DNA of 64,000 nt from an uncultured Clostridium sp. (GTDB taxonomy: Bacteria > Bacillota > Clostridia > TANB77 > CAG-508): NCBI GenBank assembly GCA_948438085.1, contig CAOJKP010000005.1, positions 1-64,000 of the forward strand, read 5' to 3'. Positions within the stretch are counted from its first letter, which is position 1, and every line of letters starts with the position of its first letter. This document shows positions 7,190-25,386 of this stretch, piece by piece. Both the position numbers and the translations under genes were made by a program. Under the pieces are notes generated by a model. The model made no database searches. It saw only the letters and a list, made by a program, of their open reading frames with translations, and was not told where the DNA came from.

Positions 7190-7379
7190 AAAAAACCCCG
7201 CCTTAGACGTCATTGCCAAGAGATTTTACGGACCTGTATATATACAGGTGGGTGCCTACCTAAATACTTATGGGTTTCTTACATAAATGCAAGCATACAC
7301 GCCATATTCAGAGTTTAAGCTCCCTTTCCGAAAGTTTGAGGTTCTAAAATATCTTGTTTGTCGCGTACTACGCAGGGAA
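7190..7379 (-). ncRNA. ssrS: 6S RNA (RNA polymerase-binding regulatory RNA)
   Basis: This GC-richer island of about 190 nt has no coding potential. On the minus strand the 5' end CCCTGCG pairs with the 3' GGCGGGG, which runs into TTTTTT. Internal blocks GAACCTCAAAC, GGGAGCTTAAACTC, GGCGTG.ATGC, GTAAGAAACCC, GTAGGCACCCACCTGTA.ATACAGGTCCGTAA and CTCTTGGCAATGACG follow the order I recall for Firmicutes 6S RNAs. The long hairpin mimics an open promoter and sequesters sigma-A RNA polymerase in stationary phase. Ends are approximate and the family call rests on remembered consensus, not a covariance search. Confidence 0.8.
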
Positions 7380-7556
7380 ATTTAATATCTATTTAATTAC
7401 AAGTTTATAATAACATATAAGCTTAATTTATTTCAAGTTTGTTTTTTTCGTTTTAAGCTTATTTTTTTATATTTAGATTTATTTATCTCACTTTTTTTAA
7501 GTTTTTATAATATTATTATATAAATTTATTACTTGTATTATTCATAAATTTATGTA

Positions 7557-10596: not shown

Positions 10597-10755
10597 AGCG
10601 CGAAGGAAGAAATGTTTTAAAATATTTTAGAACGATGAGGAGCCATGCGTGGGGGACCAATAGAAACTGTCAAAATGTGTTAACATTTTGTACTGTTTCA
10701 TTGGGGAATGGCGACTGTTCAAAATATTTTAAAACATTTACTTCCTGGAATCGGT
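10597..10755. repeat. Structured repeat element, copy 1 (unrecognised)
   Basis: A GC-richer ~159-nt island between two minus-strand genes. Left GGAAG...AAATGTTTTAAAATATTTT pairs with right AAAATATTTTAAAACATTT...CTTCC, a stem of about 28 bp. Inside are GCCAT/ATGGC, GAAAC/GTTTC and a terminal CAAAATGT-GTTA-ACATTTTG hairpin, with GCGTGGGGGACC and TGGGGA unpaired in between. It has no reading frame of note. Copy 2 (24235-24393) is inverted and about 94% identical without indels. It could be a structured RNA gene or a mobile hairpin; the transcribed strand is undetermined. Confidence 0.8.
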
Positions 10756-23294: not shown

Positions 23295-23323
23295 ACTAGA
23301 CAAAATATTAAGTTCTTGTCTAG
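23295..23323. terminator. Convergent terminator of the ger operon and truB
   Basis: ACTAGACAA (23295-23303) pairs with TTGTCTAGT (23315-23323), with T-rich tails on both strands. It lies between the convergent ger operon and truB. Confidence 0.75.
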
Positions 23324-24198
23324 TCTTCTTTTATTATTACATCTCTTTTTAACAGGTTTTTATTTACTATTCCTAATCCTATAAATTTGCTATTATTATA
23401 TACTCTATATATGTCGTCTTTTAAATTCATTGTTAATTTTACTCCATTTAAAAATAACTGTAATTGCTTGTTATCAAGTTCTATTTTTTCTTTATTTTTA
23501 AATATTTGCTCTATTGTTATTATTTTATTTTCAATTTTTTCTTTATCTTCTTCATATCTTTTTAATTCTTCCACTGTTACTGTATTGTTTATTTCAAATT
23601 CTCCAACTTTTATTCTTTGTAGTTCCTTCATTATTCCAATTGTTCCTAATTTGTTTGCAATATCTTCGCATAAAGTTCTAATATATGTACCTTTTGAACA
23701 TTCTACTTTATATCTTATTTCTTTATTTTTTTCATCTACTTCTAGTAATTCTATATTGTATATATGTATTTTCCTTGGCTGAATTTCTACTTGTTTATTG
23801 CTTCTTGCATATTCATATAACTTTTTTCCATTTACTTTTATTGCAGAATACATTGGCGGATATTGTTCACATTTACCTATAAATTGATTAAGAACATTTT
23901 GGACTCTTTTTTTTAAATCGTTAGTATCTACTTTTGTTTCTTCTAATATTTTTCCTGTAGAATCAAGAGTATCGGTTTTTATTCCTAATTTTAGAGTTGC
24001 AATATATATTTTATCGTGATTTATTAAGTATTTTGAAATTTTAGTTGCATCACCTATTAATAGTGGTAATACTCCTGTTGCATTTGGGTCTAATGTTCCT
24101 GTATGTCCCATTTTTTCTTTTAAACTTTTTTTTGCAATTGACACTATATCGTGTGATGTATAATCTTTTGGTTTATTTATTAAAATTATACCATTCAT
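23320..24198 (-). CDS. truB: tRNA pseudouridine-55 synthase
   Basis: 292 residues. MNGIILINKPKDYTSHD opens the protein; catalytic Asp37 lies in GHTGTLDPNATGVL, followed by KCEQYPPMYSAIKVNGKKLYEYAR and KGTYIRTLCEDI. It forms pseudouridine-55 in the T-loop of tRNA. It ends the rimP-to-truB operon, but about 235 nt holding the structured repeat element separate it from nrnA. Its stop lies inside a bidirectional terminator shared with the ger operon. Confidence 0.97.
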   Translation of the reverse strand: MNGIILINKPKDYTSHDIVSIAKKSLKEKMGHTGTLDPNATGVLPLLIGDATKISKYLINHDKIYIATLKLGIKTDTLDSTGKILEETKVDTNDLKKRVQNVLNQFIGKCEQYPPMYSAIKVNGKKLYEYARSNKQVEIQPRKIHIYNIELLEVDEKNKEIRYKVECSKGTYIRTLCEDIANKLGTIGIMKELQRIKVGEFEINNTVTVEELKRYEEDKEKIENKIITIEQIFKNKEKIELDNKQLQLFLNGVKLTMNLKDDIYRVYNNSKFIGLGIVNKNLLKRDVIIKED

Positions 24199-24234: not shown

Positions 24235-24393
24235 CCGCTCCCAGGAAGCAAATGTATAAAAATATTTTGAACAGTCGCCATTCCCCAATGAAACAGTACA
24301 AAATGTTAACACATTTTGACAGTTTCTATCGGTCCCCCACGCATGGCTCCTAATCGTTCTACAATATTTTTATACATTTCTTCCTTCGCGCTA
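24235..24393. repeat. Structured repeat element, copy 2 (inverted)
   Basis: The reverse complement of copy 1 (10597-10755), about 10 differences over 159 nt and no indels. The outer stem stays paired although its sequence differs (GTATA/TATAC here, GTTTT/AAAAC in copy 1). The internal GCCAT/ATGGC, GAAAC/GTTTC and CAAAATGT/ACATTTTG stems are identical. It sits between nrnA and truB inside an otherwise continuous operon. No clear target duplication is visible in the AT-rich flanks. Confidence 0.8.
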
Positions 24394-24434: not shown

Positions 24435-25386
24435 CTATTTTAAATGATTTTTTATTTCATTCATTATTCTTAATTTTACTTCTTCTAATGAGGCATTTAT
24501 TGTACAACCTGCTGCTCTTACATGTCCTCCGCCTCCAAACATTAAGCTTACATCAGAAACATTTACGTAATTATTAGAACGTAATGAAACTTTGTATCCA
24601 TTTTCTACTTCCCTTAGAAAAACAGATACTTCTACTCCTTCAACTTCTCTACCTATATTAACTAACCCCTCATGATCTCCTGGATTAGCATTCACTTTTT
24701 CCAAATCTTCTTTATTTATATATGTAAATGCAACTTTTTCATTTTCCAAAAATTCTAGTCTATCTATGCACATTTTTGTTAATTCGAAATTTGCTTTGGT
24801 TTTAACTTCTAATACCCTTCTATATACCTCTGAAACATTTACTCCCATTGACAATAACTCTGATGTAAATTCAAATGTTTCTGAGGATGTTCCTGGATAT
24901 TTAAATCCTCCTGTATCTGTAATTATTCCTGTTAATAAACATGTTCCTATTTCAACATTAATATTAACTCCAATAAATTCTAATACTGTTATTAGTATTT
25001 GGCAACATGCTGGAGCATCTGGATTTACATAGTTATAATCTGCAAACATTGTATTACTTCCATGGTGATCAATATTAATTGTTACTTTTGCTTTTTCAAA
25101 ATATACAGCAAATCCATTTAATCTTTTTATATCTGCACAATCAAGTGCTATTGCTAAATCATACTCTTCAATACCTGTTTCTTTTTTCATTTGATTTGCA
25201 GATGGTAGAAATTCAAATGTTTTCGAGTATTCTGGAACAATCATATCAACTTGTTTTCCAAGTGTTTTTAAGGAATTATACACTGCAAGAATGCTTCCTA
25301 TTGCATCTCCATCTGGAGTTTCATGCGTAAGTAATATTATAGATTTTGCTTTTCCGAATTTCTTCTTTTATATTATCCAATGTCAT
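24435..25386 (-). pseudogene. nrnA: DHH/DHHA1 phosphoesterase (NrnA-like), frameshifted near the 5' end
   Basis: The intended start is ATG 25386-25384 (MTLDNIKEEIRKSK), after GAAAGGAATG. One extra A in the A4 run at 25347-25344 shifts the frame to an early stop. Removing it restores SIILLTHETPDGDAIGSILA, the metal-binding motif I, and then continues through ALDCAD, the DHH motif NIDHHGSN and the DHHA1 motif GGGGHVRAAG. The reconstructed length is about 316 residues. Without correction the longest frame starts at a GTG (25283) and lacks motif I. NrnA degrades nanoRNA and dephosphorylates pAp. Position after rbfA is the standard Firmicutes order. The lesion may be a sequencing error or a fresh mutation. 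Confidence 0.85.

Follow-up and report, generated by a model that had tools for sequence, protein, structure and literature searches.

An element of about 160 bp, found as 19–24 well-conserved copies each in this genome and two congeners, is a dispersed intergenic foldback repeat, restricted to one bacterial family, in which a conserved core is enclosed by covarying arms. The pattern of change in the arms resembles the copying of one arm from the other in the course of DNA replication more than it does selection on an RNA. The explanation in which we have somewhat better than even confidence is that this is a non-coding, MITE-like foldback element whose arms are kept complementary by template switching in DNA and whose core is under constraint.

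Results

Two copies of the element and their surroundings

The window, by which we mean the whole 64-kb stretch of DNA that was analysed, holds two copies of the element on opposite strands (Table 1); the strand that starts AGCGCGAAGG and ends GAGCGG is referred to as the reference strand. The copy at 24235 is near-palindromic, and an inverted-repeat search found its arms to be 100% complementary over 17 nt. The initial annotation distinguished the two copies by their outer stems, GTTTT/AAAAC in ‘copy 1’ (at 10597) and GTATA/TATAC in ‘copy 2’ (at 24235), and counted ten differences, four of them in two compensated pairs. Both copies are present as described, and our own count on a pairwise alignment returned the same figures: ten substitutions, four of which make up two swapped T-A/A-T pairs in the outer stem. 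Covariance model R1 matched the copy at 24235 over positions 24237–24389 of the minus strand (161 bits), and the covariance-model match to the second copy spans 10600–10752 of the plus strand (165.8 bits).

Table 1. Positions of the two copies of the element in the window and of their parts.
Feature	Position	Strand	Context or basis
Element, copy 2 of the initial annotation	24235–24392	− (reference strand)	between nrnA and truB
5′ outer arm of this copy, AAATGTATAAAAATATT on the reference strand, carrying the swapped GTATA	24363–24379	−	inverted repeat
3′ outer arm of this copy, carrying TATAC	24250–24266	−	complementary to the 5′ arm at every position
Conserved core, 5′ side, GGAGCCATGCGTGGGGGA, with the tandem GA, the GCCAT stem and the asymmetric loop	24333–24350	−	alignments; motifs kept across genera
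Conserved core, 3′ side, ATTGGGGAATGGCGACTGTTC	24269–24289	−	16-nt right half counted in three genomes
5′ end motif, AGCGCGAAGGAAGAAATG	24375–24392	−	24 genomic sites, control 0
3′ end motif, CATTTGCTTCCTGGGAGCGG	24235–24254	−	21 genomic sites, control 0
Second copy, arms GTTTT/AAAAC	10597–10754	+ (reference strand)	flanked by genes for a histidine kinase and a TPR protein
5′ outer arm of the second copy, AAATGTTTTAAAATATTTT	10610–10628	+	sequence
3′ outer arm of the second copy, AAAATATTTTAAAACATTT	10721–10739	+	sequence

The copy at 24235 lies downstream of rbfA and infB (the latter identified from its sequence), in the 236-nt gap between nrnA (24435–25283, minus; DHH/DHHA1) and truB (23320–24198, minus). 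None of the readable nrnA-truB gaps of congeners carries the element; many measure 7–50 nt and several hold other repeats. Other hairpin repeats (e.g. GTGCGACCTGATGGTCGCA, GGACTGCCTAAGGCAGCCCC, TGTAGGGGCGA..) adjoin the element or occupy the nrnA-truB gap of relatives (L004, L008–L012, L014, L350–L371). The nrnA frame (24435–25383, minus) seems to be broken near its start, as the match to DHH starts at position 21 of the profile and the upstream extension runs into a stop. In five congeners truB was matched as two pieces in different frames (L365–L374; G008, G010, G016, G017 and G019), with the break near residue 100 in four of the five.

A conserved core within variable arms

Read inward, the element consists of an end motif, long arms, a tandem GA, a stem, an asymmetric loop, the stem CCRAU/AUUGG and a variable apical hairpin, and the consensus of the core, GGAGCCAT..GTGGG-GACCRAT....ATTGGGGAATGGCGAC, sits inside the two long inverted arms. 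The tandem GA is flanked by a covarying AG/CU or CG/CG pair, the core stem GCCAU/AUGGC reads GGCUU/AAGCC and GUUUU/AAAAC elsewhere, and the asymmetric loop is GUGGGGA/GGA. Different genera share the core motifs but not the arms, and it is the outer arms that vary most. The outermost end motif (AGCGCGAAG/CTGGGAGCGG) is kept in several genera and lost in G007 and G015; overall, end motifs are conserved in G000 and some genera, and are replaced or unrelated in G007, in G015 and in the copies of genus g2. Within a single genome of genus g2, copies share a nearly identical core and have mostly unrelated, well-paired arms.

Several variants of this plan were observed. Core-less stubs occur at G000:C1:30367-30412 and G000:C16:117-162, two of 46 bp with the same junction, and also at C16:4329 and C3:87729; they seem to have arisen by deletion between short repeats located in the arms or next to them. 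We considered whether the core had been inserted into a pre-existing host hairpin and rejected this, since the 46-bp stubs have the appearance of deletion products formed at short repeats in the arms, and since in G000 and G007 arms and core go together. G007 may also hold a shorter subfamily of about 100 nt with reduced arms (L258–L264). Some copies (L184, L187, L273 and other genus-g2 loci) are flanked by an outer inverted repeat containing GGGGACGGGCTTGTTTTGCTGAAA, which resembles a separate palindromic repeat.

Distribution

By DNA search the element was matched at 34 places in this genome, near-completely at 21 of them, and some congeners gave matches too. The 16-nt right half-core occurs 21, 24 and 19 times in three congeneric genomes, and the reversed-pattern control 0 times. 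With a covariance model built from 24 diverse copies, relatives were found in 41 of 390 genomes of the bacterial family, representing 10 of 39 genera. All 28 positive genomes of an order-wide sample fall in this same family, and no genome of that sample from outside the family was positive. Named records with true copies are from uncultured Clostridia; other pattern matches in named records came without matching arms and were judged to be chance. A viral scan returned two loci with wider motif spacing, likewise judged chance, and a plasmid search gave no match to the element; a phage or plasmid origin was rejected.

Among 89 distinct copies, almost all are intergenic, and they occur in both orientations. 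Where the neighbouring genes are co-directional the element is antisense in 34 cases and sense in 17; 18 further settings are divergent and 8 convergent. A few copies overlap putative reading frames. With orientation and position relative to genes so mixed, a riboswitch or leader role was rejected. The lineage-specific presence of the element and its dispersed copies suggest that it is mobile.

Covariation of the arms

Because two copies are thin evidence, many more were gathered. In a plain sequence alignment of 24 diverse copies, two-sided changes were seen at 36 of 54 pairs; 88.5% of pairing cells were paired, compared with 77.5% after shuffling and 37–47% when partners were slid by 1–3 columns, and the covariation score was 0.300 against 0.06–0.09 for the slid structures. 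An all-against-all scan of 10,979 column pairs in 68 copies placed structure pairs in all of the top 10 and in 25 of the top 30 positions, although the alignment had been fitted to the structure of the model, which favours structure pairs among top scores. Given such strong covariation in both sets, the covariation of the outer arms is real and beyond chance. On these numbers the initial annotation was right that pairing has been preserved far more than chance allows, and the covariation it proposed to look for among further copies is strongly positive, with the ten best column pairs of the larger set all in the helix.

One reading of this result is a structured non-coding RNA family, in which the reference strand would be transcribed and the hairpin kept by selection on the RNA. 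Besides the covariation itself, it draws on the conserved asymmetric loops and tandem GA beside a covarying stem, on an A/G position in CCRAY (below), and on a stable predicted fold, which in the 24235 region scored z = −7.6 and −9.5 against shuffles on the two strands. The mixed orientation relative to neighbouring genes argues against it, as does the lack of a U-tract 3′ of the 3′ arm in either copy in the window. A search of the element against Rfam, at gathering and at permissive thresholds, gave weak chance matches only and no family, a further point against an RNA. The sole Rfam match in the window is a 6S RNA (RF00013, 77 bits) at 7191–7381 on the minus strand, and 6S RNA served as a control in what follows.

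Mismatches in the arms are strand-symmetric

In an RNA helix, a G-U pair on the transcribed strand is far better tolerated than an A-C mismatch. Over 2,953 paired positions in the outer arms of 127 distinct arms we counted 12 G-U and 19 A-C mismatches, and a looser arm alignment gave 10 and 17. For 6S RNA from the same order, by contrast, the consensus fold gave 129 G-U against 9 A-C, a ratio somewhat inflated by the energy model used to select the structure, in which G-U is allowed; restricted to pairs with a Watson-Crick consensus, the control gave 39 against 6. In the central hairpin of the element there were 52 G-U and 9 A-C, but this excess is due to a single position, the R of CCRAY, which is recurrently A or G and, on one strand only, forms an A-U or a G-U pair. 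Without it the count is 3 against 9, and the general wobble tolerance of the core stems that a first count (22 against 3) had appeared to show was rejected.

Two-sided changes in the arms comprise 286 transversion-type and 123 transition-type cells, which are not independent events as the copies are related. Most are A-T/T-A double transversions, as in the example of the initial annotation, for which no wobble intermediate is possible. For this element, then, compensation alone does not show RNA selection, and selection at the RNA level is visible at one or two core positions at most. We regard the RNA family as unlikely. The initial annotation had ascribed the compensated pairs to selection on an RNA or DNA hairpin: the pairing is indeed preserved, but with arm mismatches that are strand-symmetric, a matched indel and exchanged spacers (below), selection on the hairpin is not secured as its cause.

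Orthologous loci

The same locus carries the element in three genomes of genus g2 (L184, L187 and L273). Compared with L184, L187 has one extra A-T pair, inserted at the same place in both arms. L273 agrees with L187 in the orientation of its core and far flanks, and the spacers that separate the outer inverted repeat from the arms have exactly changed places, which is consistent with two nested inversions; this is the single locus with clean inversion evidence, and it comes from draft metagenome assemblies, in which inverted repeats may be assembled wrongly. At L033/L223 and L034/L035 the core is inverted relative to the flanking genes, for which independent insertion is possible. At L108/L202 both arms are almost completely rewritten and the flanks are still similar. 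The orthologous lineages compared are different species, and no template-switch event was seen between near-identical strains.

Discussion

Template switching between inverted-repeat arms homogenises the arms and inverts spacers (PMC8604942), and it has been put forward to explain how compensatory mutations can arise in a single step (PMC8794818). The element displays arm homogenisation without strand bias, together with matched indel changes and, at the one locus described, spacer inversion. The mismatch spectrum, the matched indel and the swapped spacers thus point to template switching as the probable cause of the arm changes. In outline, some machinery would spread copies to intergenic sites, where the arms of a settled copy would act as an inverted repeat. 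DNA polymerase would switch template between these arms, copying a mutation from one arm into the other, and may occasionally invert the segment between them. Both arms would be rewritten together, giving rise to ‘compensatory’ pairs with no selection on RNA, and the core would be held by sequence constraint. Homogenisation alone should also have removed the asymmetric loops; their conservation implies that the core is under some constraint. The rewriting of both arms at L108/L202 is not easily explained by stepwise copying and counts against template switching. A more novel reading is a self-spreading hairpin element, in which the core, as folded RNA or single-stranded DNA, would drive dispersal and the arms would be rewritten at each locus; within one genome, copies would then share a core and have unrelated, perfectly self-complementary arms. 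We consider such an element distinctly unlikely.

Two further readings were weighed. One is an ordinary MITE, whose terminal inverted repeats would serve as recognition sites for a transposase encoded by a resident insertion sequence. In its favour, the element is short (under ~600 bp), AT-rich, non-coding, multi-copy and intergenic with inverted ends, and its end motif GCGCGAAG..GAGCGG recurs in other genera. However, a MITE is conserved at its ends, whereas this element varies most in its outer arms and is conserved at its centre. In 20 elements with both ends there is no consistent target-site duplication, lengths of 4–9 bp not exceeding shuffles and those of 2–3 bp being marginal after 25 offsets. 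In three genomes nothing pointed to a longer copy in which a gene separates the half-cores; the right half-cores coincide with copies of the element as far as compared, the reversed-pattern control was 0, and an autonomous version of this type was rejected. We think an ordinary MITE very unlikely.

A DNA hairpin or cruciform could instead be selected as such, for example as the single-stranded substrate of a transposase or nuclease. The strand-symmetric Watson-Crick pairing of the arms, the conserved asymmetric core and the dispersed copies favour this. REP/RAYT and IS200/IS605-derived palindromic elements are likewise folded intergenic repeats, recognised as single-stranded hairpins. The obvious candidate enzyme, a Y1 transposase (IS200/IS605, RAYT), is however absent from the carriers G000, G007, G012 and G016 (drafts, 77–94% complete) in a Y1_Tnp search. 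Mobilisation of the IS200/IS605 or RAYT type was rejected on this ground, and the search for a mobilising enzyme, which covered Y1, found none. In addition, the arms of different genus-g2 copies share little sequence, so no enzyme could read them by sequence. DNA-hairpin selection is a possible cause of the pairing, if not a likely one.

Compared with prokaryotic MITEs and BOX/RUP/SPRITE repeats (PMC10969869, PMC3049150), the element is similarly short, AT-rich, non-coding, inverted and intergenic, with foldable transcripts (predicted in our case), but it differs in having no target duplications or found cognate transposase (Y1 was searched) and in having ends less conserved than the core. With template-switch-maintained hairpins or quasipalindromes (PMC8794818, PMC8604942) it shares matched two-arm changes, arm homogenisation and spacer inversion; those, however, are mutation patterns at single loci, whereas here the pattern extends across an entire family of dispersed repeats that have a conserved core. 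The bcr1–bcr18 repeats of the Bacillus cereus group (cited in PMC3446304) are dispersed intergenic repeats of a Firmicute, some MITE-like and some with conserved RNA-type structure, about half of which fall in transcripts. The likeness to our element lies in this general description; the organisms are different, and in our element it is the outer arms that vary between copies and the centre that is conserved.

In conclusion, compensatory base changes are usually held to be the best proof of a functional RNA helix, and the covariation in this family of elements is of the textbook kind, but the mismatch spectrum and the orthologous loci suggest that the arm changes originated in DNA copying. Caution is called for when RNAs are sought in repeats by their covariation. 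The family, which has dozens of copies per genome and occurs in several genera, is a natural test case for telling RNA selection from template switching in bacteria, and it adds a dispersed element outside Rfam to a family of uncultured Clostridia.
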